64,000 nt of DNA. It comes from Brevibacillus sp. DP1.3A. Lineage in GTDB: Bacteria; Bacillota; Bacilli; Brevibacillales; Brevibacillaceae. The notes under the pieces are model-generated. The model was not told the origin of the DNA. It did no database searches and worked only from the letters and a program-made list of their open reading frames with translations. Numbering within the stretch: position 1 is the first letter of the stretch; each line of letters begins with the position of its first letter. Shown here in pieces: positions 41,198 to 60,513 of this stretch. Location of the stretch: NCBI RefSeq assembly GCF_013284245.2, contig NZ_CP085876.1, forward strand, positions 755,001-819,000, written 5' to 3'. The position numbers were made by a program, and so were the translations under genes.

Positions 41198-41334
41198 TTC
41201 TGAATATTATGGATGCATTTTTTTGCTGCTATATAGCCGCGAAATGTCTCGTCATGTCCATTTTTGGGTGGTGGTCATCTTTGCAGTGGCGTTCGTTCGA
41301 GAAATGCATCGTGTTGAATAGGTCCGATCTAACC

Positions 41335-42098: not shown

Positions 42099-42121
42099 AG
42101 CTCCACTTAGTGGGGCTTTTT
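42099..42121 (+). terminator. Intrinsic terminator inside the PKS transcription unit
   Basis: AGCTCCAC pairs with GTGGGGCT (one G-U pair) around a TTA loop and is followed by T5. It separates the phosphopantetheinyl transferase gene from the roughly 20 kb of PKS genes downstream. No new promoter is evident between it and the next gene, so read-through must be controlled; LoaP is the obvious candidate. Confidence 0.75.
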
Positions 42122-42158
42122 GTTTTGGGTTTTGCTCCTGAAGGGAGAGTTAGCTGCA

Positions 42159-42851
42159 ATGAGCGATTCCTATCAGATCCATACCATTTGTACGAGCTAT
42201 CTCAATGAATTGTCCAATTACAATTATTTAATCGTCGATAAAGCGACAAAGCTGGCCGCTCTTGTAGATCCTTCTTGGGAGCTCGATCGAATTTTGACGG
42301 TGATCGAAGGGCTGGACGTGAAGCTGCATGCCATTTTGTTAACTCATTCCCATTTTGATCACGTAAATCTTGTGGAATTGCTAAGTGTACGGTATGCGCC
42401 CAAGGTGTACATATCAGCGAAGGAAGCGCGGTATTACGCGTTTTCTGCTCCCAATTTACATACGTTTAACGATCTAGATACCATTTCGCTGGGAAACACC
42501 ACGATTACCTGTATGCTTACGCCGGGCCATACTGCCGGAAGCGCCTGTTATCTATTATCCGGTTGTTTGATAACAGGAGATACGCTATTTATCGAAGGTT
42601 GCGGCAGATGCGATACAACCGGCGGAAATCCGGATGATATGTTCGACAGCTTGCAAAAAATACGAGACACCGTGCCGATCTACGCCAGAGTCTATCCTGG
42701 ACATTCATACGGGAAAGAGCCTGGATATCCGCTTTGGTATTTATTGGAGAACAACATCTATTTTCACCTTGTGAATCGCACGCAATTCATTTCGTTCCGA
42801 ATGCGTCATGCTCAAGGCTATGGCTCGGATGCGAGAGAGAGACGAAAGTAA
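42159..42851 (+). CDS. Metallo-beta-lactamase-fold hydrolase, PksB-like
   Basis: A 230-residue glyoxalase II-type hydrolase. The zinc-binding THSHFDHVNL (HxHxDH) lies near residue 65, LTPGHTAGSACY near 128, and LITGDTLFIEGCGRCD near 145, with the last histidine in VYPGHSYG. PksB/BaeB homologues occur in trans-AT PKS clusters and are thought to act as thioesterases of uncertain role. The start ATG at 42159 follows GGGAGAG; earlier in-frame start codons do not. It is the first gene beyond the internal terminator. Confidence 0.88.
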   Translation: MSDSYQIHTICTSYLNELSNYNYLIVDKATKLAALVDPSWELDRILTVIEGLDVKLHAILLTHSHFDHVNLVELLSVRYAPKVYISAKEARYYAFSAPNLHTFNDLDTISLGNTTITCMLTPGHTAGSACYLLSGCLITGDTLFIEGCGRCDTTGGNPDDMFDSLQKIRDTVPIYARVYPGHSYGKEPGYPLWYLLENNIYFHLVNRTQFISFRMRHAQGYGSDARERRK

Positions 42852-42864
42852 AACGGAGGGGACA

Positions 42865-45800
42865 ATGGAGAAAAAAGTCGTGTTTATGTTCTCGGGTCAA
42901 GGCTCCCAATATTATCACATGGGTGAGACGCTCCTGGCCGAGGGAGATGTATTCGAAAAATGGATGACCCGGCTAGATCAAATTGCCGAACCGTTAGTTG
43001 GCCGATCCATCATGCAGCTGCTCTATGACCCTCGACATTCGAAAGCAGAATCTTTCGATAGAACGCTTTTTACTCATCCGGCTCTTTTTATGGTGCAGTA
43101 CGCCTTGGCACAAGAGATGCTTCATCACGGGATCTTTCCTGATTATGTATTGGGCAGCAGTCTCGGGGAATTTGTCGCGGCCGCCGTCTCCAATATTTTG
43201 GACCCGGAGCAGGCCCTCATTGCTGTCATCAAACAGGCTCAAATCTTTGAGATGAGTTGTGAAAGCGGGGGGATGCTGGCCGTATTGGATGATCCGCGCA
43301 CCTTTCGGGAGAACCCGCTCTTATATAACAACACCGAGCTGGCAGGAATTAACTACGATGGGCATTTCGTAATCGCAGGCGGTAATGTGGGCTTGGACGG
43401 CATTCATACGCATTTGAGGGATAAAGGTATTGCTTCCATTCGGCTTCCTGTCTCCTACGCGTTCCATTCTAGGGAAATTGAACCTGCCGAAAACGCGTTT
43501 ATCAGTCATCTTCGTACTTTATCGCTTCAGAAACCGGCCGTTCCTTTTTTGTCCGGCATGTATGGAGAATGGGTTGAAGCTTTGAGGCACGAATACTTCT
43601 GGGATGTGGTCAGGCAGCCAATGAGGTTTCGGGAAGCGGTAACTGCTATGGAGCGGGAACAGCCGGCCGTTTATTTGGATTTGAGCCCTTCAGGGGTGCT
43701 CGCAAATTTCACGAAACGGCTCTTTAGGGACGATTCAAGCTCTGAAAGCGCCGGGCTTCTGACGGTATATGGTTTTGACTTTGAGAAAATGAATGAGCTC
43801 AAGCGAACGATCGCACGACCAAATGACTCGATTACGAGAAGGGACGACGAAAGCATGATCGCATATCTTTTTCCAGGACAAGGCTCCCAGCACGTTGGTA
43901 TGGGGGAGGGACTTTTTGATGAATTTCCGGATTTGACTGCAAAGGCGGATGCCATTCTTGGTTATTCGGTAAAGGAGCTATGCCTGAACGATCCGAAGCA
44001 TCAGTTGGGCAACACCGCTTTTACCCAACCGCTTTTATACACGGTCAATGCTCTGATGTATATGAAGAAAAGAAGGGAAACAGGCAGACGTCCCGACTTT
44101 GTAGCCGGTCATAGCTTGGGCGAGTATAATGCCCTGTTTGCGGCAGAGGTTTTCGATTTCGAAACCGGACTGCGTCTCGTTAAGAAGCGGGGCGAGCTGA
44201 TGGCACTGGCTACAGGCGGAGGAATGGCGGCAGTAATCGGCATGCAAGCACAAGAGGTTGAAGACATTATTCGCCGGAATGGACACTTGGAAATCGACGT
44301 TGCCAATTATAATTCGCCCGTGCAAACCGTCTTGTCGGGGCGTAAAGACCATATAATGGAGGCGCAGCGCATTTTTGAACAGGCTGGGGCAGGGATGTAC
44401 ATTCCGCTTAATGTCAGCGGTGCATTCCACTCCCGGTATATGAATGAAGCGAAGAAAGAATTCGAGCAATTTCTGAATAACTTTATCTTCAACGAGCCTG
44501 TTATCCCTGTCATCGCAAACGTGTCTGCCCGTCCCTATCCGTTCAACGAAATCAAACGCAACTTGACTGAGCAAATCACAAGCTCCGTCAATTGGACGGA
44601 CACCATTCGCTATTTAATGGGAAAAGAGGTAGAGCTGTTCGAGGAGGTTGGGCCGAAAGACGTGCTTACAAAGCTGACGGAGAAGATCAGGCAGTCGAGC
44701 TCTCCGTTATTCGTAGAGGAAGAAACGCCGGAGGAGCCGAGCACAAACGAACAAATGAACGACCTGCCGTTGGTTGACAGGGAATCGGCCTCCATGCCCA
44801 GCGCCCGGAAGACGATCACTGCAGCTTCGCTTGGCAGCCTGGCGTTCAAGGAACGGTATGGTCTGAAATATGCCTATGTTTTGGGCGCCATGTACAAGGG
44901 GATTTCCTCGGCCGAAATGGTTGTGAAAGCCGGAAAGGCCGGCATGCTCTGTTTCTTTGGCTCCGGAGGACTAAGGATTACGCAAATCGAGGAAGCGATT
45001 CGGGACATTCAGCGCCAATTACGCGGCGGCGAGCCCTATGGAATGAATTTTCTTCACCATCCGGATAACCAGGCTCTCGAAGAAGCGGTTGCCGATCTTT
45101 ACTTGAAGTACGGCATAACCGTAATAGAGGCTTCTTCCTTCATTACGATGACTCCTGCGCTAATTAAATATCGGGCGAAGGGACTGACAAGAAGAGCGGA
45201 CGGAACGGTGGAGATTCGAAATAAAATTATCGCCAAGGTTTCCAGACCAGAGGTCGCATCCAACTTCCTAAGGCCGGCACCGGAGCGGATCATCGAGAGG
45301 CTTGTTCAAGAAGGTAAAATTACGCAGGAAGAAGGCCGCTTGCTGCAAATGGTACCGGTTGCCGACGATCTGTGCGTCGAAGCGGATTCGGGCGGACATA
45401 CCGATCAAGGCAGCGCGTATGTGCTCATGCCGACATTGATCAGGCTGCGTGACGACATGGTACGCGAACATGGTTATACGAGCGAGATTTCTGTAGGTGC
45501 TGCCGGAGGGATAGGAACTCCTGAGGCGGCGGCTGCCGCGATATTGCTAGGTGCGGATTTCCTTGTGACTGGTTCCATTAACCAATGTACGGTGGAGGCT
45601 GCGACTAGTGATGCCGCTAAAGACCTTCTGCAGCAGGCGAATGTGCAGGATACCGATTATGCGCCGGCGGGCGATATGTTTGAAATTGGCGCCAAGATAC
45701 AGGTTTTAAAGAAGGGCCTGTTTTTCCCCGCAAGAGCGAATAAATTGTATGATCTGTACCGGCATTTCAACGCCTTGGAAGAATTAGACGAGCCGACAAG

Positions 45801-46158
45801 GGAGCGTCTTCAGGATAAGTATTTCCATCGCTCCTTTGAAGAAATCTATCAGGAAGTCATAGCACACAAAGCTCCTGCCGAAATCGAGAAGGCGGAGCGT
45901 AATCCGAAGCATAAAATGGCCCTTATATTTAAGTGGTATTTCTCCTATTCGACGCGGTTGGCGATGACGGGCAGCAAGGAACATAAGGTAGATTACCAAA
46001 TTCATTGCGGTCCTGCGCTCGGAGCATTCAACCAGTGGGTGCTGGGCACGGAGCTGGAGCATTGGAGAAACCGTCATATTGATCAGATTGGAGAGCTGCT
46101 GCTGAATGAAACGGCAGCCCTGTTGAACCACCGAATTTCCGAATTGGTTGGCAATTGA
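42865..46158 (+). CDS. Trans-acting acylhydrolase-acyltransferase-enoylreductase tridomain protein
   Basis: A 1097-residue protein that supplies PKS modules in trans. Domain 1 (about 1-310) is AT-like with GSSLGE (Ser99), but the arginine that holds the malonyl carboxylate is glutamine (Gln124 in VIKQAQIF), a sign of acylhydrolase (PedC-type) proofreading. Domain 2 (about 330-620) is a true AT with GHSLGE (Ser417), Arg442 in VKKRGELM and GAFHS. Domain 3 (about 660-1097) is an FMN-dependent enoylreductase of PfaD/PksE type (VLGAMYKGISSAEMVVKAGKAGM, near its start). It is likely the sole source of malonyl loading for these PKS proteins. Start ATG at 42865 follows GGAGGGG; it overlaps the previous gene only in earlier frames. 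Confidence 0.92.
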   Translation: MEKKVVFMFSGQGSQYYHMGETLLAEGDVFEKWMTRLDQIAEPLVGRSIMQLLYDPRHSKAESFDRTLFTHPALFMVQYALAQEMLHHGIFPDYVLGSSLGEFVAAAVSNILDPEQALIAVIKQAQIFEMSCESGGMLAVLDDPRTFRENPLLYNNTELAGINYDGHFVIAGGNVGLDGIHTHLRDKGIASIRLPVSYAFHSREIEPAENAFISHLRTLSLQKPAVPFLSGMYGEWVEALRHEYFWDVVRQPMRFREAVTAMEREQPAVYLDLSPSGVLANFTKRLFRDDSSSESAGLLTVYGFDFEKMNELKRTIARPNDSITRRDDESMIAYLFPGQGSQHVGMGEGLFDEFPDLTAKADAILGYSVKELCLNDPKHQLGNTAFTQPLLYTVNALMYMKKRRETGRRPDFVAGHSLGEYNALFAAEVFDFETGLRLVKKRGELMALATGGGMAAVIGMQAQEVEDIIRRNGHLEIDVANYNSPVQTVLSGRKDHIMEAQRIFEQAGAGMYIPLNVSGAFHSRYMNEAKKEFEQFLNNFIFNEPVIPVIANVSARPYPFNEIKRNLTEQITSSVNWTDTIRYLMGKEVELFEEVGPKDVLTKLTEKIRQSSSPLFVEEETPEEPSTNEQMNDLPLVDRESASMPSARKTITAASLGSLAFKERYGLKYAYVLGAMYKGISSAEMVVKAGKAGMLCFFGSGGLRITQIEEAIRDIQRQLRGGEPYGMNFLHHPDNQALEEAVADLYLKYGITVIEASSFITMTPALIKYRAKGLTRRADGTVEIRNKIIAKVSRPEVASNFLRPAPERIIERLVQEGKITQEEGRLLQMVPVADDLCVEADSGGHTDQGSAYVLMPTLIRLRDDMVREHGYTSEISVGAAGGIGTPEAAAAAILLGADFLVTGSINQCTVEAATSDAAKDLLQQANVQDTDYAPAGDMFEIGAKIQVLKKGLFFPARANKLYDLYRHFNALEELDEPTRERLQDKYFHRSFEEIYQEVIAHKAPAEIEKAERNPKHKMALIFKWYFSYSTRLAMTGSKEHKVDYQIHCGPALGAFNQWVLGTELEHWRNRHIDQIGELLLNETAALLNHRISELVGN

Positions 46159-46175
46159 CTGAGAAGGAGAACGTT

Positions 46176-49100
46176 ATGGTTGATATAGCAATCATCGGGA
46201 TGTCCTGCAGACTACCTGGGGCGCGGAATTATCATGAATACTGGTCCAATCTGATCGAGGGCCGTTCATCTATCCGGGAAATTCCCAAGGAGCGGTGGGA
46301 CTGGAGAGACTATTGGGGAGATCCGAAAGTTGAATATTCGAAGACCAACAGCAAATGGGGCGGCTTTATTGACGATGTAGACGCTTTTGATGCAGCGTTC
46401 TTCGGCATATCGGCCAGAGAGGCGGAGGTGATGGACCCGCAGCAGCGGATGATGCTTCAGCTTTCCTGGTCGTGTCTTGAAGATGCTGGGATCGTCCCGT
46501 CAGCGTTATCGGGCAGCAAGACAGGGGTCTATATCGGCGTGTTCAACTTGGATTACAAGGAACTGCAAGAGAGGCCCTCCAGCCTTATTGAAGCTCATTA
46601 TTCGACGGGAACCGCAGCTGCTGTTATCGCGAATCGAATATCCCATTTTATGAATCTGAGAGGGCCGAGCCTTTCAGTGGACACCTCGTGCTCAAGTTCG
46701 CTGCAAGCGATTCATTTGGCGGTCCAATCGCTGCAGACAGGTGAATGCAGCATGGCTTTGGCGGGTGGCGTCAGTCTAATCCTGACTCCGACCCGCCATA
46801 TTTCATTTTCCAGAACAGGCATGCTGTCACCTACAGGCTCCTGTAAAACGTTTGATGATAACGCGGATGGATATGTCCGCAGTGAAGGCGCCGGTCTTAT
46901 TTTGCTTAAGCCCTTGGCACTGGCGGAAAAAGACGGCGATTTAATCTATGGCGTCATTAAAGGAAGCGCTGTGAATCATGTCGGTAAGACACACACCTTA
47001 ACTTATCCGAATGCACAGGCGCAGGCTGAAGTCATCGAGGAGGCGTTCCGCAAAGCGGGTCTAACGCCGGATCAGGTGAATTATATGGAGGCACACGGCA
47101 CCGGAACGCCTAAAGGCGATCCGATTGAATTTCAGGGCCTTACGCTTGCGTTTCAAAAACTCGAAGCAGAGATGGATAAGCCGCTTAGTCAGCGTTATTG
47201 CGGCATCGGTTCAGCCAAAACAAATATCGGGCATGCCGAATCCGCAGCAGGCATCGCGGGCGTGATTAAAGTGCTGCTTTCCATGAAGCACCGAACACTC
47301 CCCGGATTACAAAATTTCAAAACGTTGAACCATCGGGTTGAATTAACCGGGACTCCTTTCTATATGGTGGACCGGCCGCGGGAATGGGAGCCGCTTCTGG
47401 ATCATAATCAACAGCCGCTTCCGAGAAGAGCCGGCGTAAGCTCGTTCGGCTTCGGAGGGACGAATGGGCATGTGCTGATCGAGGAAGCGCCGCAGAGGCC
47501 GTCTCGCAAGATGGCGCAGCATGAATTGCCGTGCCATCTATTTTGTTTTTCCGCAAAGTCTGAAAAATCGCTTCTTCTATCGCTAGAGACGTTAGTCGTA
47601 TGGTTGGACAGCGAAGGAAGCGAGTGCGAAGCCGCGGACCTAAGTGCCGCCTTGCTGCTGCGCAAACAGCATTTTGGCATTCGTACCGCCATCGCGGCGC
47701 AAAGTGCGGAGGAGCTTAAAGGTCGTTTAAAGGAGCTGTTGTCTGACCGGGAAGAAGCACAGCGATTTTTGAAGCAGGAAGCTTCAAAAATAGAAAAGAC
47801 CAAAACTGCGCTTTTTCAAGAGCTGGCAGGCCTACTGATCCGAGAGCTCCGCGAATGTGTGAATGATACGCAAAAGTATCGGGAGAAAATATCGGCTTTG
47901 GCAGAGCTGTACGTAAAGGGCTATGACTTCGATGCATTGGCGCTCTTTGAAGGAATGGACCTGAACAGACTTCGATTGCCTGCCTATGCTTTTACCAAAG
48001 ACCGATACTGGATTACGGGCAGTACTCCGGAATCCGCTATTGTGCCGACGTCAGGTAGCGGAGGTGGAGGTGAGCTTCATCCTGTACTGCATCGGAACAC
48101 ATCGGACTTTGCCGGGGTTCGCTACAGTTCGGTTTTCACAGGAGAGGAATTTTTTCTCGCTCATCATGTCGTCGCCGGGAAGCGTGTATTGCCGGGTGTC
48201 ATTTACTTGGAAATGGTCCGCGAGGCGGCTGAACAGGCCGGCAGGAAATGGTTAGGCGAGCGTAAGCGTATCGTGCTGAATCGGGTGGTGTGGTCGCAGC
48301 CTGTTATTGTGACGGATAGCTCCGTTGAGGTTCATGTGTCGCTTTCGGTTCAAAATGACGATAGCTGCAGCTTTCAAGTTTACAGCGTATCCGGTGAATC
48401 AGAGCAAGATCGTGTTCTTCATTGCGAAGGTCATGTCTCGTTTCGTTCGGCTGATCCGGCTTCCAGGAAACTGCAAATTCAAGATTTCTTAAACTCCGGG
48501 CGAACCCCCGTCCCATCGCTCGTCTGTTATGAACGTATGGAAGCGATGGGTCTTCATTATGGTCCGGCTCATCAAGGAATTGAGCAACTATATCAAATGG
48601 ACGGCTTTATTGCCGCTAAGTTGTTGCTGCCGGAATCCATTTCCGATACGCGAAATCACTTTGTTCTTCATCCGAGCTTGATGGATGCGGCTCTGCAGAC
48701 GGCGGTTTACAGTTATTCAAATGCCGGACAAACGACTGTTGGTGAAAGCGGCAAGCCCTTGCTGCCTTTTACGCTGCGGGAGCTCGAAATTATACGTCCG
48801 TGCGCTTCTGCTGCTTGGGCGATTGTAAGCGAGGAAGAAGCGGGAGACAGCAAAATGAAACGTCTCCGTATTGATGTATGCGATGAGGACGGCAGCGTCT
48901 GTGTGAGCATCAAGGGCTTCGTCCTAAGGCCGCTGGAGGGCGGGTTCGCCGGCGGCGTCTCAGATCCTGCAAAACCGGAGGCGTCAAAGGCATATGCGGG
49001 ATTAATGGTGCCGTTATGGGACCCGATCACACCGGCTGCACGTAAAACGGATGCTCCGAACATACGAACCGTAATAGCCGGAGGTTCGGCAGCGAGCCGT

Positions 49101-50732
49101 GACAAGATAGGGCGGGTTATTCCGAATGCGCAGGATGTGCAGCTACAGGTGGAGGATGACCTGGAAGTATTGGCAAGAAAGCTGGAGCAGTGCGGCGAGA
49201 TCGGCCATTTTGTTTGGATTGCGCCTGACGATTCGATAGAGTCAGCCGAATCGGATGCGATGCTTGCGGCGCAGCATGAAGGCGTGCTATTCCTGTTTCG
49301 GATCATCAAAGTGCTGCTTATGTTTGGATATGGCGCAAAGTCGTTAAAGTGGAGCGTCATCACATTCCAAACCGTGCAGGTATTCCGGAAGGAAACAATT
49401 CGGCCGGCCCATGCAAGCCTTCATGGGCTTATCGGCTCGATGGCCAAGGAATATCCGAACTGGTCGGTTAGCTTTGCCGATTTGGAGCGGGAAGATGCTT
49501 GGCCGATCGAAGAGTTGATCGCATTGCCGCCTGATGAGCGGGGCGACGTATGGGCATACCGGTCCAGGAAGTGGTACCGGCAGAAAATGATCCCGTCGCG
49601 GATCCCCAAACCTGAAGGTACAGTATACCGGAAGGGAGGGGTCTATGCGGTAATCGGCGGAACCGGCGGAATCGGAGAAGCATGGAGCGAATATATGATT
49701 CGCCGGTATCAGGCGAACATCGTCTGGATTGGCCGACGGGAGATTGACGCCGGTATTCAGGAGAAGATCGATCGGCTGTCAAAACTGGGGCCGTCTCCGT
49801 GCTACATCCAAGCAGACGCAAAGGACGGGAAGGCGCTGGAACTGGCGTACGAGAGCATAAAATCCAGCTACGGACGGATCCATGGCGTCATACACTCGGC
49901 AATTGTGCTTTTGGATCAAAGTTTGGCGAATATGTCGGAGGAGCGGTTCGCAGCGGGATTGACGGCAAAGGTGGACGTGAGCGTAAGGATCGTACAGGTA
50001 TTCGGAAGGGAACAATTGGATTTCGTTCTGTTCTTCTCTTCCATGAACTCTTTTGCAAAACCCGGAGGTCAGAGCAATTACGCGGCAGGGTGCACCTTCA
50101 AAGATGCATTCGCACAGCGTCTGGCGATGGAATGGCCATGCAAAGTGAAGGTCATAAACTGGGGCTACTGGGGAGGCACAGGCATCGTTTCCTCGGAACA
50201 ATACCGAAAGCGCATGGCACAAGCAGGGGTTGGCTCCATCGAGCCGGAAGAAGCGATGGACGCACTGGAGACGCTCCTTGCCGGGCCGTTTGACCAAATG
50301 ATGCTAATCAAAACAACAAAGCCTTATCCGCTAATTGATATGAAGCATGATGAATGGATTGCAAACTATCCGGAACAGCTCTCGTCCAATATCCAACGGC
50401 TGATAACGGAGCGAAAGAGGCGCAGTGCATCGGAGCAGGAGTATCCTGTCCCAGCTTCTTCGGTATCGGTTGATGAGACAGACGATCCTGTGCTGACGTA
50501 TTTATCCGGTTTAGCCGCTGAATGGCTTCAAGTGGATTTCGGTGAAATTTGCGTGGATACTCGGCTGGAGGAATACGGGATTGATGCGGTCGTTTTTAAT
50601 GAAATGCTCGTGTCCGTAAACCTGCAATATCATATCGATTTGCAGCCGGCTGAGCTGTCTGCTCAAGCATCGCTGCGTCAGATCAGTTCATGTGTGCGCG
50701 AGGCAATAGGAATTGGCGCTGACAAGAGCTGA
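46176..50732 (+). CDS. Trans-AT polyketide synthase 1: KS-DH-KR-ACP(inactive)
   Basis: A 1518-residue modular synthase lacking an AT. KS (1-430) has Cys172 in DTSCSSSL, His307 in EAHGTG and an NIGH histidine, so it is active. DH (about 630-920) has His664 in HVVAGKRVLP and Asp837 in DAALQ. KR (about 945-1380) has the GGTGGIG nucleotide site near 1160 and Tyr1302 in NYAAG; an L-L-D-Q motif suggests a B-type KR. The C-terminal ACP-like fold (about 1435-1510) reads YGIDAVV: the serine that should carry phosphopantetheine is Ala1471. It starts at ATG 46176 behind GAAGGAG. There is no loading domain. The C-methyltransferase and working ACP that complete this module appear at the start of the next protein. 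Confidence 0.9.
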   Translation: MVDIAIIGMSCRLPGARNYHEYWSNLIEGRSSIREIPKERWDWRDYWGDPKVEYSKTNSKWGGFIDDVDAFDAAFFGISAREAEVMDPQQRMMLQLSWSCLEDAGIVPSALSGSKTGVYIGVFNLDYKELQERPSSLIEAHYSTGTAAAVIANRISHFMNLRGPSLSVDTSCSSSLQAIHLAVQSLQTGECSMALAGGVSLILTPTRHISFSRTGMLSPTGSCKTFDDNADGYVRSEGAGLILLKPLALAEKDGDLIYGVIKGSAVNHVGKTHTLTYPNAQAQAEVIEEAFRKAGLTPDQVNYMEAHGTGTPKGDPIEFQGLTLAFQKLEAEMDKPLSQRYCGIGSAKTNIGHAESAAGIAGVIKVLLSMKHRTLPGLQNFKTLNHRVELTGTPFYMVDRPREWEPLLDHNQQPLPRRAGVSSFGFGGTNGHVLIEEAPQRPSRKMAQHELPCHLFCFSAKSEKSLLLSLETLVVWLDSEGSECEAADLSAALLLRKQHFGIRTAIAAQSAEELKGRLKELLSDREEAQRFLKQEASKIEKTKTALFQELAGLLIRELRECVNDTQKYREKISALAELYVKGYDFDALALFEGMDLNRLRLPAYAFTKDRYWITGSTPESAIVPTSGSGGGGELHPVLHRNTSDFAGVRYSSVFTGEEFFLAHHVVAGKRVLPGVIYLEMVREAAEQAGRKWLGERKRIVLNRVVWSQPVIVTDSSVEVHVSLSVQNDDSCSFQVYSVSGESEQDRVLHCEGHVSFRSADPASRKLQIQDFLNSGRTPVPSLVCYERMEAMGLHYGPAHQGIEQLYQMDGFIAAKLLLPESISDTRNHFVLHPSLMDAALQTAVYSYSNAGQTTVGESGKPLLPFTLRELEIIRPCASAAWAIVSEEEAGDSKMKRLRIDVCDEDGSVCVSIKGFVLRPLEGGFAGGVSDPAKPEASKAYAGLMVPLWDPITPAARKTDAPNIRTVIAGGSAASRDKIGRVIPNAQDVQLQVEDDLEVLARKLEQCGEIGHFVWIAPDDSIESAESDAMLAAQHEGVLFLFRIIKVLLMFGYGAKSLKWSVITFQTVQVFRKETIRPAHASLHGLIGSMAKEYPNWSVSFADLEREDAWPIEELIALPPDERGDVWAYRSRKWYRQKMIPSRIPKPEGTVYRKGGVYAVIGGTGGIGEAWSEYMIRRYQANIVWIGRREIDAGIQEKIDRLSKLGPSPCYIQADAKDGKALELAYESIKSSYGRIHGVIHSAIVLLDQSLANMSEERFAAGLTAKVDVSVRIVQVFGREQLDFVLFFSSMNSFAKPGGQSNYAAGCTFKDAFAQRLAMEWPCKVKVINWGYWGGTGIVSSEQYRKRMAQAGVGSIEPEEAMDALETLLAGPFDQMMLIKTTKPYPLIDMKHDEWIANYPEQLSSNIQRLITERKRRSASEQEYPVPASSVSVDETDDPVLTYLSGLAAEWLQVDFGEICVDTRLEEYGIDAVVFNEMLVSVNLQYHIDLQPAELSAQASLRQISSCVREAIGIGADKS

Positions 50733-50781
50733 TACCCAATATCCGAAGGCGATGCATAATAAAAGAAAGGATGGCCTGCTA

Positions 50782-53700
50782 ATGTCGGGATTTAAGGTTG
50801 GAAGTCTGCAAATGAAGTGGAACGATCCGCTTCTTTGCCGGTTGCTCTGGGGTCAACTGCAATCGATTGGCATGTTTAGGGAACGAAATACGACACTGGA
50901 TGCGCTAAAAGCAGCTGCCGGCTTGCGCGGGATATACGATAGATGGCTGGAAGAAAGTGTCGCCGCACTTGCGCGGCACGGTTATCTCGAGGTTAGCGGC
51001 GGCAATATCAATGTTTACGATCCATCGCTTGTCCATATCGAGACCATCTGGGCTGAATGGGACCGACGAAAAATGGAGTGGCTCGCCGACCCGAATCTTA
51101 AATCGCAGGCCGTCTTGGTCGAAGCCGCGCTTAAGGCGCTGCCGGAGATCATTACGGGCAAAATTCCTGCAACCGACGTTATATTCCCTCAAGCCTCCAT
51201 GGCGCTGACGGAGGGGATTTACAAGAACAATCTGGCCGCGGATTACTTCAATGAAGTGATCGCAGACCTCGTGGTCGATTATGTACAAGAACGAAAGCGT
51301 CAGGACGCATCGGTACGCATCCGGATTTTAGAGATCGGCGCCGGCACGGGCGGAACGAGCGCGATGGTCTTTCGCAAGCTGAAACCGCACCAGGCGAATA
51401 TTGAGGAGTACTGCTACACGGATCTGTCCCGTGCTTTTTTTATGCACGCCGAGAAAGAATACCGGCCTGACAATCCGTATTTGACCTGTCAATTATTCGA
51501 TCTGGAGAAACCCCTAGCGGAGCAGCGCATAGAGCCGGGAGCCTATGACCTGGTGATTGCGACGAACGTTCTTCATGCTACAAAGCAGATCAGGCAAACA
51601 CTGCGCAATGCCAAAGCCGCGCTTAAAAAGAATGGGTTGCTTCTTCTCAATGAATTAAATGACAACTTCCTGTTCTCCCATCTTACCTTTGGATTTCTGG
51701 ATGGCTGGTGGAAGTATGAGGATGCAGAGCTCCGAATACCCGGCTGTCCCGGCTTGTACCCCGAGACATGGAAGCGGGTGCTGGAGGAGGAGGGCTTTCG
51801 GCACGTATTTTTCCCTGCTGAAAGCAGACATGAATGGGGGCAGCAAATTGTCATTGCAGAGAGCGACGGCATCGTTCGACAGCTTGAAAAACGTCCGGCC
51901 TTTGCCGGTGTTGCAGAGCCTGCGAGATCCCGGGCTTCGTCTTCGGTACGCTTGGATCGGATCGAAACGCAGCATGGTTACCCAGCGCCGCCCGTCAAGG
52001 TAGAAGCGGCGAACGTTCAGGACATCGACCGACACGCGATATCGGAAATGATTCGAGTGGTTATTCGGGAGAAACTGGCCGAATCGTTGAAGGTGAGTGC
52101 CGATATGATCCAAGACGATGAATCGTTTGCCGATTATGGCGTCGACTCCATCCTTGGCATTCATCTGGTGCGTATATTGAACGAGGCGCTAAAGGTGGAG
52201 CTGGAAACAACGAGTCTGTTCGACTACTCCTCCGTGAACGAATTGACTGCATATATCCAGTCGGCTTATATGGACGTTTTTATACATAAAAATGTGCTTG
52301 AACCAAAAGCAGAAGCAGCTAATGCTGCAGCTGACAGCGTCGTAATCGATACTGCGGAGCAAGAAAAGGAGATTGCTTGTGACCCGATGACGGCGGAGGG
52401 CATTGCGATTATCGGGATGAGCGGACGGTTTGCTGGCTCGGAAACGACGGATGAGCTGTGGCAGCATATCGCAAGCGGCCATGATTTGGTGGGCCCGATC
52501 ACCCGCTGGGATCTTTCTTCCCACCTGGCCTGGAGCGGATCGGATGCTTGCCGCGACGGCAGCTTTTTGGACAAGATCGACCGGTTTGATCCGATGTTCT
52601 TTAATATTTCGGGACTCGAAGCATCGTATATGGATCCCCAGCAAAGGCTGTTTCTCGAAGAAGCGTGGAAGACGCTTGAGGATGCGGGCTACGCGGGATC
52701 GGCAGCTTCAAGCCGGCAATGCGGGGTCTATGTCGGATGCTGCGGAAGCGATTACAATGAATTATTCGGTAATCATCCGCCGGCTCAATCGTTTTGGGGG
52801 AACGCGATATCCGTAATCCCATCCCGTATCTCGTACTTTCTTAATCTGCAGGGGCCTGCGGTTACGATTGACACGGCCTGCTCCAGCTCGCTGACGGCTA
52901 TTCATTTGGCTTGCCAAGCGCTTATGTCCAATGAGGTCGAAATGGCATTGGCAGGCGGTGTTTTCGTGCAAGCGACTTCTCGATTTTATGAAAACGCCAT
53001 TCGAGCCGGCATGCTCTCGCCGAGCGGCCGCTGCTATACGTTCGATGAACGGGCGGACGGCTTTGTACCCGGCGAAGGGGTTGGTGTCGTGATGCTGAAG
53101 CGGCTGAAGGACGCATTGGCAGACGGCGACCATATTTATGGTGTCATCCGGGGCTCCGGAATTAATCAGGATGGGACGACCAACGGCATTACAGCGCCAA
53201 GCGCCAAATCCCAGGAACGACTGGAGCGCCAAGTGTATGACCGCTTCCAGCTCGATCCGCAGGGGATCCAAATGATAGAGGCGCATGGAACGGGAACAAG
53301 ACTAGGCGATCCGATCGAGTTTCAGGCCTTAACGCGTGCGTTCCGGCATTATACGGATAAGGAGCATTATTGCGCTCTTGGTTCGATCAAAACGAATATC
53401 GGCCATTCAGTCGGCGCTGCCGGAGTAGCCGGCGTTATGAAAATATTGCTTGCTTTGAAGCATAAGCAGCTGCCGCCGTCGCTGCACGCAGAGCGCATCA
53501 ATTCGAATATCCGCCTGGAAGGCAGTCCGTTTTTCATCAACAAGTCCATACGGGCTTGGGAGACGGAGCCCGGCACGCCGCGCCGCGCTGCTGTCAGTTC
53601 GTTTGGCTTCAGCGGCACGAACGCCCATGCGGTCATTGAGGAGGCGCCGCCGCATATCGGACGCGGTAAGCGGAGGCGCCCTCTCTACTTGATTGTACTA

Positions 53701-56700
53701 TCCGCCCGGACAGGTGAGCAGCTGCGTATGCAAGCAGACAGGCTCGCTGCGTTTTGCAAGCGGGAGAACGGCAGTATATTCATCGGGGATATGAGCTTAA
53801 CGCTTCTTCTTGGACGGAGACATTTTGCCGACCGGCTCGCCTTCTTGGTCAGGGATACGGAGGAGCTTCTTCTCCGGCTTGAAACTTGGCTGATGAATGG
53901 AGAAGGTACGGGTATCTATGGATCTGATGGCCTTACGAAAGAGCAACGGGAGAAGCCGGATCTGAAACAGTATGGAAATGAATGTATAGCCATTTGCGCA
54001 GCGGCCGACCAAGATGCCAAGTTTATCGAGAGTCTGACCGCCGTGGCAGACTTATACAGCCAAGGCTATTCCTTGAACTATGAACAATTGTTCGAAGGGT
54101 GCAGTTATAACAGAGTGTCTCTTCCGACCTACCCCTTTGCCGATGAGCGGTATTGGGTAAACGAGGGCGGGAGCAGTCCGCGTGCAGGAGTACAGGAAGC
54201 TTTGCAATCCTCGGAGGCTTTTCATCCGTTGCTGCATCGGAATGTTTCTACGTTTGCCGAACAACGGTTTAAGTCGATCTTTACCGGCAAAGAGTTTTTC
54301 TTGGAAGACCATGTGGTGCACGGGCAGCGGGTGCTGCCGGGAGCTGCATATTTAGAGATGGCAAGGGCGGCCATTCAATCGGCCGTAAGCGATGGGGAAT
54401 ACAGCGGGAAGAAGATCCGGCTCAAAAATGTGATATGGGCTAAGCCCATCACGGCAGGGGCTGCAGCCGTTTCGGCCGAAATTACGCTGACACCGTCGAC
54501 CGACGGCGATATTGCTTTTCGGGTATACGGTCCGGCAGAAGCCGAAACCCTCTTATGCAGTGAAGGATCCGTATGCCTGGAGGAGCCGGGTGAGCAGCCG
54601 CGCATTCAGATCGACCGGCTGCTGAAGGAATGTGCTGCACGTTCGATCAGCCGGACGGAATGCTACGAGACATTTAATAGGATCGGTGTCCATTATGGTC
54701 CTTCTCATCAGGTCATGGACATTCTGCTCACCGGACAGGGCAAGGCGCTTGCGAAGCTGGTGCTTCCCGAATCCTTAGCTGCGTCTGTGCGGAGTTTTGC
54801 GTTGCACCCGAGCTTGCTGGACGGCGCGCTGCAGGCAGCTTCATGCCTGCTGCTCGGACTCGATACGGAAGCCGGCTGCCAACCAGGTACCTACCCTCCG
54901 CTTCCTTTTGCGTTGCAGGAGATGGAGCTGCTGAATGAATGCCTGCCTGTTATGTGGGCTTTCGCCCGCTTCAGTAGCGGCAGCGGTCGGCACAATCAGC
55001 TTCCAAGCCTTGACATCGATCTGCTGGACGAGCAGGGTAATATTTGCGTGCGAATGAAGGGGTATTGCGCGAGAGTGATGGAGGCGGGTACCAGGCAAGA
55101 GGATGTCTTCTTTATGGTTCCGGAATGGAGGGACAAAGCTCCGCAGCCTGGAATTGCGAATTCACGGGTAACCGAGCATACCGTGATCTTGTGCGAGCCT
55201 GCTCCCATGCTGCAAGCATCAGTGGAAAGCGCGTTTCCCGGCGTCCGTTGCTTGGCGCTGACGGCTGAAGAGGCCGCCATGGAGCAGAGATTCAGCCACT
55301 TCGCGCAGCGGATCTTCGAAGAGACCCAGCGCTTACTACGCCAAGTAACAGGGAGAGGCGTCATACAGATCGTTTATACCCCCGGTAGCGGACACGAGCT
55401 GCTAGCGGGATTGCGAGGGCTGCTAAAAACGATGCGTCTGGAAAACCCGCATATGTCAGGGCAACTGATTGAAATATCACAAGACGATACAGAGCTCGCA
55501 ATCGTGCAAAAGCTTCGCGATAATCTCGATCATCCCGAGGATACGCATATCGGCTATCAAGGTTCCCGCCGTATGGTGATGACACTCAAGAGGCGGGCTC
55601 CTGAAGAGGGAACGAACTCCCGTTTATGGAAGGACGATGGCGTTTATCTCATTACGGGCGGAGCAGGTGGCTTGGGTATCATTTTTGCGAAGGAAATCGC
55701 TCGAGCCGTACGCGGAGCGACGATCATTCTGACCGGCCGAGCACAGTGCGATCCAAATAAGCTGTACGAGATCAAAAATTCTGTTTCGGGAAACGCCGAC
55801 ATTGTATATAAGCAAGCCGATATGACACGGATGGAAGAGGTAAAGCGGCTGGTTCACGCTATCGAGACGGAATACGGCGGATTGAACGGGGTCCTTCACA
55901 GTGCCGGCGTGCATGCGGATAATTATTTACTTCGCAAAAGCAAGGACGAATGGAATGCGGTATTGGCTCCTAAGGTTTCGGGGCTCGTCCACCTGGATCA
56001 AGCAACGAAGCATATCCCTTTGGATGTATTCGTCATGTTTTCATCTGTGGTTGCTTGGCTTGGCAATCCCGGGCAGGCGGACTATAGCACGGCGAACGCG
56101 TTTATGGACGCGTATGCCGCCTTCCGCAGCAGACTGGCCGCGGAGGGCCAAAGAAAAGGCCATACTTGTTCCATTAACTGGCCGTTATGGCAAGAAGGCG
56201 GCATGAGGGCAGGCGAACATGCGGAGCGTGAGCTCGCCAAGGCGATCGGATTGATTCCGATGTCCACCAAAGCCGGAATCCGGGCCTTCGATCAGGCGAT
56301 GTCAATCGGTTCGCCGAACGTGATCGTCGCGGCCGGAAGCGCTGATCGATTGGAGCAAGCCCTGACAGGGGATATCCAAGTATCGTCAGATGACGTGAAG
56401 CAGTACGAATCGGCAATGGACACCCTTTCGACCGAAGTGGAAGAACGTGTCCTCCTAAAAGTGAGGGAGATCGTTTCCTCCGTCATTCGGCTGCCGCTGC
56501 ATCGGGTGGAAGCGGATGCGCACATGATGACGTTCGGGCTGGATTCCATTATCGTCATGCAATTGACGGGACAGCTCGAGCGTCTGTTCGGCTCCTTGCC
56601 GAAAACGCTGTTTTTCGAATATCAAAATCTGCGTGACTTGGCGAAGTTTTTCATACAGCGGCACGAATCACGTTGCGCGCAATTATTCGGCGATCGTCCT

Positions 56701-59700
56701 CAGCCGAAGGTGCTGCAGGAAGATGCGCGTATGCCGGAACATTCTGCTGTGCGGCAAACGGTACTTTTAACAGAGAAGAAAAGCGAGGATGCCGCTACTA
56801 AGCAGCGCAGCCTTCCCGGTAGCGCCCCCCTTGATATCGCGATAATCGGTGTTGCCGGCAGATATCCGGGTGCGCGAAATATGGATGAGTTTTGGGAGCT
56901 GCTGCAAGGTGGCGTCGATTGCGTGACAGAAATTCCGAAGGAACGGTGGGATCATACCCCTTATTTCCACCCTGCCAAAGGAACGACCGGCAAAACAAAT
57001 GGCAAGTGGGGCGGGTTTCTGGAGGGCGTCGATCAGTTTGACCCGTTGTTTTTTAATATTTCGCCGCGTGAAGCCGAGCTCATGGATCCTCAGGAGCGGC
57101 TTTTTTTGCAGTGTGTCTATGAAACAATCGAGGATGCTGGCTACACCCGGGACAGTCTTGCAGGAAGAAAAGGGGACGATGCCGGTTCCAGTGTAGGGGT
57201 ATTCGCAGGTGTCATGTACGAGGAGTACCAGCTTTACGGAGTTCGGGAGACGATGAACGGTAATCCGGTCGCGCTGAACGGAAGTCCGGCGTCGATTGCA
57301 AATCGGGTATCGTATGTTTGTAATTTTAACGGTCCGAGCGTTGCTGTTGATACGATGTGCTCGTCCTCGCTGACGGCCATCCATTTTGCATGCCACAGCC
57401 TGCAAAGAGGAGAGTGCGATGCAGCCATTGCTGGCGGCGTAAACGTCTCGCTGCATCCGAACAAATATCTGTTGCTTGGCCAAGGAAATTTCCTGTCCAC
57501 CAAAGGCCGTTGCGAAAGCTTCGGAGCCGGCGGAGATGGCTATGTCCCCGGGGAAGGCGTTGGAGCCGTCCTGTTGAAGCCGCTTGCGAAGGCCATCGCC
57601 GACGGTGACCAGATTTATGGCGTCATTAAGGGGACATCTATTAATCACGGCGGGAGAACGAACGGTTATTATGTTCCGAATCCGAATGCGCAGGCTTCCG
57701 CAATTGCGCGCGCGTTGAAGGAGTCGGATATAGACGCGAGGTCGATCAGCTATGTAGAGGCCCATGGTACGGGCACATCTCTTGGGGATCCGATTGAAAT
57801 TGCCGGGCTTTCTAAAGCGTTTGAAGCTTATACCGAGGACAAGCAATATTGTGCAATCGGCTCCGTCAAATCGAATATCGGTCACTGCGAAAGTGCCGCA
57901 GGCATAGCGGGTCTGACCAAGGTGCTGCTGCAGCTCAAGCACCGGAAGCTGGTACCGTCGCTGCATGCCGACACGCCCAACCCATATATCGATTTTGCTA
58001 CTACGCCGTTTCAGGTTCAGCGGGAGCTAGGGGAGTGGGAGCGTCCGGCGATGGTGCTTGACGGGAAAATCGAGGAGCAGCCGAGAATGGCTGGCCTTTC
58101 GTCATTCGGAGCCGGCGGTGCGAACGCTCATCTCATCGTTGCCGAGTATATTCCGGATCGTAAGCGTGCCGTGCATGCGCCAAAAGCTCAGCGAGAATGC
58201 ATGATCGTGATCTCCGCGAGAAGTGAAGACCAATTAAAAGAACGGGCTCAGCGTCTGCTGCAGGCGGTTAATAAAGAACTTGAAAATGACGATTCTTTCC
58301 TGATTAACATGTCTTACACACTCCAGGTAGGTCGGGAAGCGATGGAAGAGCGTATGGCCATCGTCGTAAGAACGATCGAGGAGCTGCGGGCAAAGCTTAT
58401 CCAATATGTGGATGGGCAGCTAGGAATTCCGGATTTGTACAGAGGATCGGTAAAACAGAACCGGGAAACCGTTGCGCTCATTGCGGCGGACGAAGATATG
58501 ATGAAAGCGGTCGGGGCCTGGATGACCAAAGGTAAATACGCGAAGTTCCTGGATCTATGGGTAAAAGGGCTGGATATCGACTGGAGCAGTCTCTATGAAG
58601 AAGGCGATAAGCCGGAGAGGGTCAGTCTGCCCACCTATCCGTTCGCACAGGAGCGTTACTGGCTGCCGTCGGTATCGTCTATGGATGAATCAGGGGCGTT
58701 CCGCTCTTTAGAACGACATACTTCTGAGCCCGCTCTTGAGCCTGATGAGAAGGCAAAGGTTATTTCCGCTGAGGAATTTAGATCTCCGCTTGCACATAGC
58801 GGATTGCTCGTGCCGGTGTGGGACCCTGCACCACCGACAGTACGAAACGCGGCTGATCGGAAGCCGAATGGCCGCACAGTTATTATTGGCGGTACGGCCG
58901 CAAGGGTCGCGGAGATCAGGCGGCATGTGGAGGATGCATCGGATGTGCAGCTTCATGCGGGAGAGAACACGGCGGAATTGGCACGGAAGCTGGAGCTGTC
59001 CGGTCCGATCGAGCATTTGATCTGGATTGCTCCGGATGATTCGATAGAAACAGCGCAATCGGAGGCCATGTTGGAGGCGCAGCGTGAAGGGGTACTGATC
59101 CTGTTTCGGACCCTAAAAGCCTTGTTGGCCCTTGGATATGGCATGAAGCCGTTACGGTGGAGCATCATCACGGTTCGAACCGTCCAGGTTTACCGCGGCG
59201 AAGCGATTAAGCCTGCCCATGCAAGCCTCCACGGGTTAATCGGCTCAATGGCCAAGGAATATCCGAACTGGTCCGTTTGTCTAGCGGACATGGAGACGGA
59301 TAACGGCTGGCCGCTCGAGGAACTGTTCGCACTCCCGCCGGATGCGCGGGGCGATGGATGGGCGTACCGGTCCGGGGAATGGTATCGGCAGAGACTGATG
59401 CCGGTGCGTATGACCAAGACTGCAGGTACCGTATACAAGAAGGGTGGCGTCTATGTAGTCATCGGCGGTACGGGTGGCATCGGAGAAGTATGGAGCGAAT
59501 ATATGATTCGGCGTTATCAGGCGAACATCGTTTGGATCGGGCGACGGGGGAAGGATACCGGTATACAGGCCAAGATCGATCGGCTGGCGGAGCTTGGACC
59601 GGCTCCACGCTATATCCAAGCGGATGCGACTGACGGGAAGGCGCTGGAGCGGGCGTATGAAGAAATAATAAACCGATACGGACGCATCCACGGACTGGTC

Positions 59701-60513
59701 CACTCGGCCATCGTACTGCTGGATCAAAGCCTGGCGAACATGGAAGAGGAGCGGTTCGCTGCGGGATTGCGCCCGAAGACAGACGTGAGCGTACGAATGG
59801 CGCAAATATTCGGCCATGAAAAGCTGGACTTTGTCCTGTTCTTCTCATCAATGAACGCGTTTCTGAAGCAGGAGGGGCAAAGCAACTATGCGGCAGGATG
59901 CACGTTCAAGGATGCGTTCGCGCAGCGTCTGGCGACGGAGTGGCCATGTGCCGTGAAGATCATGAACTGGGGCTATTGGGGCAGCACGGGCGCTGTGTCG
60001 TCAGAGCATTACCGCCGGAGAATGGCGCAAGCAGGTATTGTCTCCATTGAACCGGGCGAGGCGATGGACGCGCTGGAATCGCTGCTTGCCGGACCTTTCG
60101 ATCAGCTTGCCCTGATGAAAACGGTGGCAGGTAATGAAATGTTTGGCCAGTCGATCGCCGATGAGCTGGAAGCTTATCCGGAAGAGGACAGCCTGTCTTT
60201 CGAGCATATCGTCAATCATCTTCGTTTGCCAGCGGTTCCGAAGGCTGAAGCTTCGGACTTGCTTAGAGAGGGAGAGTCTGCGGACCGGATTGGAAATTCC
60301 CTGCTATGGGCGGCAGCAAGCATATTGAATGTGCAAGCGGAAGAAATCGAAACGGACATCCCATTCTATGAGTATGGATTCGACCCTGTTAAGCTGGCCG
60401 AATTTTCCCGGTGGATCTCCGACCACTATAAGCTTGCTATGACAAGCGATACGCTCCTTCAACAGGCAACGCTTGGACAGTTGGAGGCCTTCCTTGCGGA
60501 GCAGATCGGATAA
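50782..60513 (+). CDS. Trans-AT polyketide synthase 2: MT-ACP-KS-DH-KR-ACP-KS-KR-ACP(inactive)
   Basis: A 3243-residue synthase with no AT. Order: C-methyltransferase (about 1-370, SAM motif LEIGAGTGG near 184), ACP (DS at Ser456), KS (about 535-960; Cys700, EAHGTG, NIGH), DH (about 1145-1440; His1177 in HVVHGQRVLP, Asp1347 in DGALQ), KR (about 1610-1850; GGAGGLG, Tyr1768), ACP (Ser1922), KS (about 2010-2460; Cys2193), KR (about 2670-3115; GGTGGIG, Tyr3036) and an ACP-like end reading YGFDPVK, where Pro3202 replaces the phosphopantetheine serine. The N-terminal MT-ACP completes the module begun in PKS 1; the C-terminal KS-KR needs the MT-ACP of PKS 3. I use ATG 50782, with AAGGATGG ahead; an upstream in-frame ATG at 50752 is less well placed. 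Confidence 0.9.
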   Translation: MSGFKVGSLQMKWNDPLLCRLLWGQLQSIGMFRERNTTLDALKAAAGLRGIYDRWLEESVAALARHGYLEVSGGNINVYDPSLVHIETIWAEWDRRKMEWLADPNLKSQAVLVEAALKALPEIITGKIPATDVIFPQASMALTEGIYKNNLAADYFNEVIADLVVDYVQERKRQDASVRIRILEIGAGTGGTSAMVFRKLKPHQANIEEYCYTDLSRAFFMHAEKEYRPDNPYLTCQLFDLEKPLAEQRIEPGAYDLVIATNVLHATKQIRQTLRNAKAALKKNGLLLLNELNDNFLFSHLTFGFLDGWWKYEDAELRIPGCPGLYPETWKRVLEEEGFRHVFFPAESRHEWGQQIVIAESDGIVRQLEKRPAFAGVAEPARSRASSSVRLDRIETQHGYPAPPVKVEAANVQDIDRHAISEMIRVVIREKLAESLKVSADMIQDDESFADYGVDSILGIHLVRILNEALKVELETTSLFDYSSVNELTAYIQSAYMDVFIHKNVLEPKAEAANAAADSVVIDTAEQEKEIACDPMTAEGIAIIGMSGRFAGSETTDELWQHIASGHDLVGPITRWDLSSHLAWSGSDACRDGSFLDKIDRFDPMFFNISGLEASYMDPQQRLFLEEAWKTLEDAGYAGSAASSRQCGVYVGCCGSDYNELFGNHPPAQSFWGNAISVIPSRISYFLNLQGPAVTIDTACSSSLTAIHLACQALMSNEVEMALAGGVFVQATSRFYENAIRAGMLSPSGRCYTFDERADGFVPGEGVGVVMLKRLKDALADGDHIYGVIRGSGINQDGTTNGITAPSAKSQERLERQVYDRFQLDPQGIQMIEAHGTGTRLGDPIEFQALTRAFRHYTDKEHYCALGSIKTNIGHSVGAAGVAGVMKILLALKHKQLPPSLHAERINSNIRLEGSPFFINKSIRAWETEPGTPRRAAVSSFGFSGTNAHAVIEEAPPHIGRGKRRRPLYLIVLSARTGEQLRMQADRLAAFCKRENGSIFIGDMSLTLLLGRRHFADRLAFLVRDTEELLLRLETWLMNGEGTGIYGSDGLTKEQREKPDLKQYGNECIAICAAADQDAKFIESLTAVADLYSQGYSLNYEQLFEGCSYNRVSLPTYPFADERYWVNEGGSSPRAGVQEALQSSEAFHPLLHRNVSTFAEQRFKSIFTGKEFFLEDHVVHGQRVLPGAAYLEMARAAIQSAVSDGEYSGKKIRLKNVIWAKPITAGAAAVSAEITLTPSTDGDIAFRVYGPAEAETLLCSEGSVCLEEPGEQPRIQIDRLLKECAARSISRTECYETFNRIGVHYGPSHQVMDILLTGQGKALAKLVLPESLAASVRSFALHPSLLDGALQAASCLLLGLDTEAGCQPGTYPPLPFALQEMELLNECLPVMWAFARFSSGSGRHNQLPSLDIDLLDEQGNICVRMKGYCARVMEAGTRQEDVFFMVPEWRDKAPQPGIANSRVTEHTVILCEPAPMLQASVESAFPGVRCLALTAEEAAMEQRFSHFAQRIFEETQRLLRQVTGRGVIQIVYTPGSGHELLAGLRGLLKTMRLENPHMSGQLIEISQDDTELAIVQKLRDNLDHPEDTHIGYQGSRRMVMTLKRRAPEEGTNSRLWKDDGVYLITGGAGGLGIIFAKEIARAVRGATIILTGRAQCDPNKLYEIKNSVSGNADIVYKQADMTRMEEVKRLVHAIETEYGGLNGVLHSAGVHADNYLLRKSKDEWNAVLAPKVSGLVHLDQATKHIPLDVFVMFSSVVAWLGNPGQADYSTANAFMDAYAAFRSRLAAEGQRKGHTCSINWPLWQEGGMRAGEHAERELAKAIGLIPMSTKAGIRAFDQAMSIGSPNVIVAAGSADRLEQALTGDIQVSSDDVKQYESAMDTLSTEVEERVLLKVREIVSSVIRLPLHRVEADAHMMTFGLDSIIVMQLTGQLERLFGSLPKTLFFEYQNLRDLAKFFIQRHESRCAQLFGDRPQPKVLQEDARMPEHSAVRQTVLLTEKKSEDAATKQRSLPGSAPLDIAIIGVAGRYPGARNMDEFWELLQGGVDCVTEIPKERWDHTPYFHPAKGTTGKTNGKWGGFLEGVDQFDPLFFNISPREAELMDPQERLFLQCVYETIEDAGYTRDSLAGRKGDDAGSSVGVFAGVMYEEYQLYGVRETMNGNPVALNGSPASIANRVSYVCNFNGPSVAVDTMCSSSLTAIHFACHSLQRGECDAAIAGGVNVSLHPNKYLLLGQGNFLSTKGRCESFGAGGDGYVPGEGVGAVLLKPLAKAIADGDQIYGVIKGTSINHGGRTNGYYVPNPNAQASAIARALKESDIDARSISYVEAHGTGTSLGDPIEIAGLSKAFEAYTEDKQYCAIGSVKSNIGHCESAAGIAGLTKVLLQLKHRKLVPSLHADTPNPYIDFATTPFQVQRELGEWERPAMVLDGKIEEQPRMAGLSSFGAGGANAHLIVAEYIPDRKRAVHAPKAQRECMIVISARSEDQLKERAQRLLQAVNKELENDDSFLINMSYTLQVGREAMEERMAIVVRTIEELRAKLIQYVDGQLGIPDLYRGSVKQNRETVALIAADEDMMKAVGAWMTKGKYAKFLDLWVKGLDIDWSSLYEEGDKPERVSLPTYPFAQERYWLPSVSSMDESGAFRSLERHTSEPALEPDEKAKVISAEEFRSPLAHSGLLVPVWDPAPPTVRNAADRKPNGRTVIIGGTAARVAEIRRHVEDASDVQLHAGENTAELARKLELSGPIEHLIWIAPDDSIETAQSEAMLEAQREGVLILFRTLKALLALGYGMKPLRWSIITVRTVQVYRGEAIKPAHASLHGLIGSMAKEYPNWSVCLADMETDNGWPLEELFALPPDARGDGWAYRSGEWYRQRLMPVRMTKTAGTVYKKGGVYVVIGGTGGIGEVWSEYMIRRYQANIVWIGRRGKDTGIQAKIDRLAELGPAPRYIQADATDGKALERAYEEIINRYGRIHGLVHSAIVLLDQSLANMEEERFAAGLRPKTDVSVRMAQIFGHEKLDFVLFFSSMNAFLKQEGQSNYAAGCTFKDAFAQRLATEWPCAVKIMNWGYWGSTGAVSSEHYRRRMAQAGIVSIEPGEAMDALESLLAGPFDQLALMKTVAGNEMFGQSIADELEAYPEEDSLSFEHIVNHLRLPAVPKAEASDLLREGESADRIGNSLLWAAASILNVQAEEIETDIPFYEYGFDPVKLAEFSRWISDHYKLAMTSDTLLQQATLGQLEAFLAEQIG

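Follow-up and report, generated by a model that had tools for sequence, protein, structure and literature searches.

PKS1 of a trans-AT PKS cluster ends in a carrier (ACP) fold that lacks the serine for 4'-phosphopantetheine, and comparable Ser-less domains ahead of a C-methyltransferase (MT) were found in a wide range of bacteria. We lean towards the view that the domain belongs, as a conserved pseudo-ACP (psiACP, or psi), to a type of trans-AT PKS module, KR-psiACP-(MT)-ACP, in which it would act as a structural spacer or contact while PKS1 works on the ACP of the next protein, PKS2. Since dead domains of this kind turn up repeatedly, in joined as well as in broken chains of many bacteria, the domain appears to be a retained structural element and not an error.

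Architecture of the split module and its repeats

The window (the whole 64-kb stretch of DNA analysed, from a genome of 6.66 Mb) holds a trans-AT PKS cluster, cluster A, that begins at about 41 kb (Table 1). Pfam searches of PKS1 returned KS, DH and KR, followed by a PP-binding match (PF00550) at residues 1450-1513 with 24.8 bits; the excised psiACP alone reached 31.5 bits (cut-off 20.8 in both cases) and thus belongs to the ACP fold. Its motif, EEYGIDAVVF, carries Ala in place of Ser, and the (L/G)xDS serine that takes up 4'-phosphopantetheine in a functional ACP is absent both here and from the end of PKS2, where Pro occupies the position. In the PKS2 ORF, Pfam placed Methyltransf_12 at residues 206-310 and, at 451-515, a PP-binding domain that carries an intact GVDSIL motif, and no KS was found ahead of the MT by Pfam or in the translation; the probable start, by inspection, is the ATG at 50782 with AAAGGA upstream.

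Pfam and translation confirm what the earlier note had read from the letters, namely that PKS1 ends in KS-DH-KR followed by an ACP fold whose Ser is changed to Ala (codon at 50586, with correct coordinates) and that PKS2 opens, KS-less, with a C-methyltransferase and a normal ACP. Its further claim that a working module needs both proteins, KS-DH-KR from one and MT-ACP from the other, is supported by the architecture, and fused KR-MT-ACP and KR-psi-MT-ACP homologues exist. By eye, the remaining catalytic motifs of the split module appear intact (KS Cys/His/His, DH His/Asp, KR Ser/Tyr, MT GAGTGGT), which argues that PKS1 and PKS2 are not generally decaying. The position of the catalytic Asn in the PKS1 KR appears, also by eye, to be Cys (NYAAGC), a Ser-Tyr-Cys variant of the sort reported, in the part of the source available, for KR4 of an MT-bearing module (PMC5764310).

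Table 1. Features of cluster A in the window (positions in the window)
Feature	Position	Strand	Remarks
Sfp-like phosphopantetheinyl transferase gene	41170..42060	+	naming by eye from translation
Metallo-beta-lactamase-fold hydrolase gene	42120..42851	+	naming by eye from translation
Trans-acting AT-AT + FabD-insert/nitronate-monooxygenase-type enoylreductase protein (AT-AT-ER)	42808..46158	+	Pfam PF00698 (2 stretches), PF21607, PF03060
PKS1: KS-DH-KR-psiACP	46155..50732	+	1525 aa; Pfam domain matches
Post-KR segment, 'WIxxYPE' strand/helix	50376..50498	+	approximate limits; the homologue's equivalent aligns with the DszA methyltransferase start (6cca)
psiACP of PKS1 (PF00550 stretch)	50502..50693	+	Ser to Ala at 50586-50588
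PKS2: MT-ACP-KS-DH-KR-ACP-KS-KR-psiACP	50782..60513	+	ORF listed from 50713; start by ribosome-binding site
C-methyltransferase with helical lid, extreme start of PKS2	50800..51882	+	
Active-type ACP of split module	52063..52257	+	Ser codon 52147-52149
Second psiACP, PKS2 end	60280..60505	+	GFDPVKL; Pro codon 60385-60387
PKS3 start: MT-ACP (GLDS), partner of second psiACP	60554..61960	+	start codon by eye; gene extends past window

The carrier that follows the psiACP is the Ser-bearing ACP after the MT, and a Ser-less ACP and an active ACP thus form a tandem pair within one module; in KR-psi-ACP-KS relatives the two carriers stand directly side by side. Lacking the Ser, the psiACP should be unable to hold an intermediate, so that KS1, DH and KR of PKS1 would have to act on a chain held by the ACP that follows the MT in PKS2, putatively the only carrier of the module, and a chain on this ACP would come within reach of the MT. 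The psiACP itself may have been retained as a folded element that spaces the KR from the MT-ACP part or offers a surface for contact between them, and would bridge the two whether the chain is cut or not.

The same break recurs in the window between PKS2 and PKS3, where KS-KR-psiACP (GFDPVKL) is followed by MT-ACP, and the genome contains five breaks between KR-psiACP and MT-ACP altogether, four in cluster A and one in cluster B, where the Ser is replaced by Ala, Pro, Thr, Pro and Pro. The same genome has a single DH-psi(GMDP)-MT-ACP in an unbroken chain, as well as junctions that lack a psi: two unbroken KR-MT-ACP in cluster A and one break between KR and MT. Cluster B also includes one KR whose match to MT is weak, and a single KS-MT-ACP. 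It is a second trans-AT PKS/NRPS cluster at 2325-2396 kb of the same chromosome with several kinds of psiACP, and was traced through its psi-bearing ORF in seven genomes, our own included.

Conservation and descent of the serine-less domain

A public genome collection was scanned with two patterns, one containing the Ser-less motif and the other lying in the KR and blind to the Ser, and yielded 79 loci from many phyla, the best of 404 candidates; in a phylum-wide sampling at E <= 1e-30, 2/398 genomes matched, our own being one of them. Among the matches listed, an MT is preceded by a Ser-less ACP-like domain in Brevibacillus, Paenibacillus, a Clostridia MAG, a Desulfobacterales MAG, Dictyobacter, Chitinophaga, Chryseobacterium and Streptomyces hyaluromycini. 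The first-pass psi label of this homologue survey also covered 11 Ser-bearing ACPs after a KR, and automatic motif labels in the domain survey were sometimes wrong (e.g. QDDE, QYGI, CVDT, and GEDY in locus L068). In the alignment, 30/30 distinct psi before an MT among the matches listed lack the Ser, which is replaced by Pro in 20, by Thr and by Ala in 3 each, by Gln in 2, and by Glu and by Gly in 1 each; the 22 active ACPs aligned with them had been selected by their Ser and serve only to fix the column, so that their 22/22 Ser is no result. Selection was blind to the Ser in a separate tally that covered, among the matches listed, 109 distinct ACP-like domains with a KR immediately before them: the Ser was present in 47/47 domains followed in frame by a KS, 0/7 followed by an MT, 4/11 followed by another ACP, and 18/44 at the end of a frame or locus.

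Since the Ser is gone in every domain aligned ahead of an MT and kept in every one between KR and KS, the Ser-less domain before the MT is, by these alignments, a conserved class and not a case of decay. A serine retained in relatives, which the earlier note had held to count against its reading, was sought in these homologues and appeared in none of the 30. The chance that the Ala stems from a sequencing error, or from a normal ACP having recently decayed in the manner of a pseudogene, is negligible, and nothing was found in its favour: the PKS1-psi orthologue of another genome (L160) keeps the Ala (GVDAVV), frames stay open in the orthologues of related genomes, and these relatives, together with dN/dS, rule out assembly error or decay.

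Comparison of orthologues in related genomes gave a psi dN/dS below 1 in 9/10 cases. In cluster B it ranged from 0.13 to 0.46 (6 comparisons), with 0.05-0.14 for active ACPs, 0.09-0.16 for KR and 0.12-0.19 for MT; in cluster A, where dN/dS is noisy overall (0.42 for one active ACP, 0.56 for the PKS2 MT), three psi values lay at 0.24-0.31 and one outlier at 2.3 with a dS of 0.019. The psi is under purifying selection, which in cluster B is weaker than that on working carriers. A tree of 112 carriers from named genomes, from which short or unreadable domains including those of L078 and L128 were left out, grouped together most psi before an MT, the psi of KR-psi-ACP and the N-terminal psi, adjoining Ser-bearing KR-ACP[GFDS]-KS carriers. 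The branches uniting the psi are weak (84/79 to 91/79, on 79 columns), the psi label needs 7 changes and two long-branched Chryseobacterium psi stand outside the main psi group, so several losses of the Ser are possible. The ancestor of the psi was probably a functional carrier of the KR-ACP[GFDS]-KS type.

Alternatively, the domain could be a relic, a first carrier left over after recombination had supplied the module with a downstream (MT-)ACP, with a fold that is tolerated and not used and a Ser that would have been lost since two competing carriers harm flux. Consistent with this are the position of ordinary KR-ACP[GFDS]-KS carriers as the closest Ser-bearing relatives (with weak support in the tree), the existence of KR-psi-ACP tandems, the many homologous junctions without psi and the looser constraint on the cluster B psi relative to active ACPs, but we consider a relic unlikely, as dN/dS stays below 1 in nearly all comparisons, the fold is kept across phyla, the five psi of our genome share an acidic charge and Pro, a helix-start residue, fills the position in 20/30 psi.

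Chain breaks and the predicted KR-MT arrangement

Breaks within modules are common in trans-AT assembly lines. We counted MT junctions in our own clusters and in loci L015-L168, taking each MT sequence once and retaining those that scored above 120 bits; the input comprised the best 80 of 404 candidates and the best 30 loci per search, obtained with a query alignment (KR end plus psi) that favours psi. The 137 junctions divided into 59 with KR and MT fused, 39 split between KR and MT, 23 split between psi and MT, 8 with psi and MT fused and 8 others; at 75% identity they formed 97 clusters (50, 19, 12, 8 and 8, in the same order). Psi was enriched at breaks (12/31 split versus 8/58 fused clusters; Fisher p 0.015, with the 8 other clusters excluded), an enrichment biased by the psi-favouring query and the choice of best rows and counted over rows that are not phylogenetically independent. 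For named loci only, some of which had been removed there as duplicates, psi was present in 3/10 split versus 7/56 fused clusters. Many KR/MT junctions do without a psi, including 19/31 split clusters, and the psi is therefore not essential to the reaction.

The idea that psi occurs only at breaks was rejected, as fused psi-MT (8 clusters with psi ahead of the MT in one unbroken chain) and KR-psi-ACP tandems exist. Tandems without an MT were found in cluster B (GFDQ, GFNQ), P. kobensis, P. phytohabitans, P. caseinilyticus, P. tyrfis, P. sinensis, B. dissolubilis and Pseudomonas sp. QS1027; KR-psi-ACP-KS is unbroken in L127, L113 and another contig of the genome of L067, and L067 and L114 stop at the locus edge. 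In Paenibacillus maysiensis the psi lies at the start of the MT protein and not at the end of the KR protein; the census rows for psi do not include the N-terminal psi of L059 and L137. For the 23 splits between psi and MT, the MT model begins at residue 3-9 of the partner frame in 11, at 12-38 in 11 and at 108 in one (L128), counted in stop-to-stop frames that may extend upstream of the start codon. With the MT model starting this near the frame start, most partners appear to lack an N-terminal docking extension.

Breaks between KR and MT without a psi are of at least two sorts (L028, L088, L100, L114, L127, L140, L142 and others). In one, the break comes soon after the KR, with a tail of 3-27 residues and an MT match 16-72 residues into the next frame; in the other it follows the post-KR segment, with a tail of 39-51 residues (once 80) and an MT match 1-21 residues in. 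In L037, L115 and L139 the break falls inside the MT, the upstream frame encoding its first part and the next frame, within a few bases, the rest, which may reflect a frameshift, an error or a truly split MT.

AlphaFold was run on the natural fused KR-psi-MT-ACP of Paenibacillus sinensis, a homologue and not PKS1 itself, with a 69-row alignment, and gave a mean pLDDT of 90 and a pTM of 0.88, the psi being predicted with confidence to take up an ACP-like fold; a psi-less KR-MT-ACP of P. sinensis, with the same 69 sequences aligned, served as control and gave a pTM of 0.84. In the fused model the psi helices (509-584) are followed by an MT helix at 588-608. The MT part together with the segment before the psi found its top structural match in the DszA methyltransferase (6cca; Z 44.6, 384/392 aligned, rmsd 2.3), which has no ACP-like insertion and with which the psi-less control also aligned by sequence. 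As this match includes the pre-psi segment, the psi seems, in the model, to be inserted between the post-KR segment and the first MT helix. Two large domains without fixed placement would hold pTM near 0.5 by our estimate; pTM is high in both models, so KR and MT seem, judging from pTM alone, to be placed against each other with or without psi, which would then not be the sole glue. By the same token, the notion that psi is needed to place KR against MT is unsupported. The psi of fused homologues would abut the first MT helix, and in the split genes the break would fall at that short linker; the split proteins presumably make the same contacts non-covalently, aided by direct KR-MT contact and the post-KR segment.

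These data bear on the earlier note's suggestion that the Ser-less fold has become a docking piece, and they bear it out in part: the fold is real, conserved and enriched at breaks, and its partners are mostly free of extensions. Taken as a specialised docking domain, the dead ACP would be a C-terminal element that binds the MT protein and sets the pairing among MT-first proteins. The asymmetry of the partners would be like that of DHD docking (PMC9113145, in the part available), five different pairs of psi and MT coexist in one genome, and the psi, which carry a net charge of -5 to -10, diverge strongly (mean identity 0.28), as docking elements may. However, the active ACPs of the same modules are equally divergent (0.29), psi is found in unbroken chains, in MT-less KR-psi-ACP-KS and, in one Paenibacillus, on the other side of the break, the majority of split clusters have none, and the psi-less KR-MT-ACP still reached its high pTM. 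We accordingly regard a dedicated docking role as possible but doubtful, and prefer that of a spacer or contact surface within the KR-psiACP-(MT)-ACP module.

Relation to known systems and other serine-less domains

Ser-less ACPs of trans-AT PKSs are in print, in the parts of the sources available, as ACP9a, which stands ahead of a second ACP in phthoxazolin PKS module 9 (PMC5764310), and as 'ACP0' in a gladiolin figure legend (PMC10921412). Like psiACP, both are ACP folds without the phosphopantetheine serine beside an active carrier, and the KR-psi-ACP-KS tandems found here resemble the ACP9a kind (PMC5764310). Unlike ACP9a and ACP0 as described in these excerpts, psiACP precedes an MT and, in the window, ends the protein at an intramodular break. 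In the open-access literature searched, specifically in the accessible parts of PMC9113145, PMC10921412, PMC9600693, PMC8549798, PMC5772238, PMC8456789, PMC8262917 and PMC5764310, no Ser-less ACP was found described at a split that separates KR from MT, which is weak evidence of absence. To the extent that these sources cover the field, psiACP is best read as an under-described pseudo-carrier of trans-AT KR modules: Ser-less ACPs are known, and the family at the KR/MT split was not met.

The available part of a review names two key docking classes for trans-AT PKSs (PMC9113145). The DHD domain resembles psiACP in being C-terminal, about 70 residues long and placed where a module is split, opposite a partner that has no N-terminal extension to match, and the MT indeed lies close to the start of PKS2 and of most other partners (L128 excepted); as described there, however, DHD is intrinsically disordered and sits at the KS/DH junction, whereas psiACP has an ACP fold and lies after the KR and before the MT. 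A DHD domain is also characterised by its binding to the surface of the catalytic domain downstream of it. Four-helix-bundle ('double-helix pair') docking domains likewise occupy intramodular breaks, e.g. KS/KR, but consist, in the same excerpt (PMC9113145), of about 25 residues on both proteins, in contrast to the 80-residue ACP fold of psi; paired two-helix segments of about 25 residues were not apparent on the MT proteins of our five pairs, whose ends were inspected by eye. The dehydrating bimodule KS-KR-ACP-KS0 // DH-ACP is similarly a two-protein unit split after KR-ACP whose chain is finished on the carrier of the next protein, yet, as far as the source was available, its first ACP is active and KS0 moves the chain (PMC8456789), while in the present case the first ACP is dead and no KS stands ahead of the MT-ACP that follows.

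A bolder and quite tentative proposal is that psiACP represents a third trans-AT PKS docking class, a folded Ser-less ACP after the KR that would bind a separate MT-ACP protein on its bare face, recruiting the partner and forcing processing onto the partner's carrier. The natural fused and split versions of the dead carrier offer matched pairs for testing split-module cohesion and carrier choice. They also carry a warning for annotation, as a psiACP counted as a working ACP leads to a wrong predicted module number.

Six psi of our genome match Pfam PP-binding at E <= 0.1 (6/6), and six other Ser-less domains exceed the Pfam PP-binding cut-off (6/6). A second, distinct Ser-less ACP-like domain (GVDL, GVEH, GIEP) lies between KS and DH in the long ORF of cluster B from 2370.9 kb (residue ~951), in L163-L168, in L056 (residue 971) and in L109 (residue 975); one of these domains scores 40.5 bits against Pfam PP-binding, and they form a supported group in the tree with members from Brevibacillus, a Verrucomicrobia MAG and Desulfocucumis. 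A further Ser-less ACP-like domain (GVEW) is found in three Paenibacillus (L069, L082, L099), after a DH where a DH is seen, in the frame that follows the one with KR-psi-ACP...MT.
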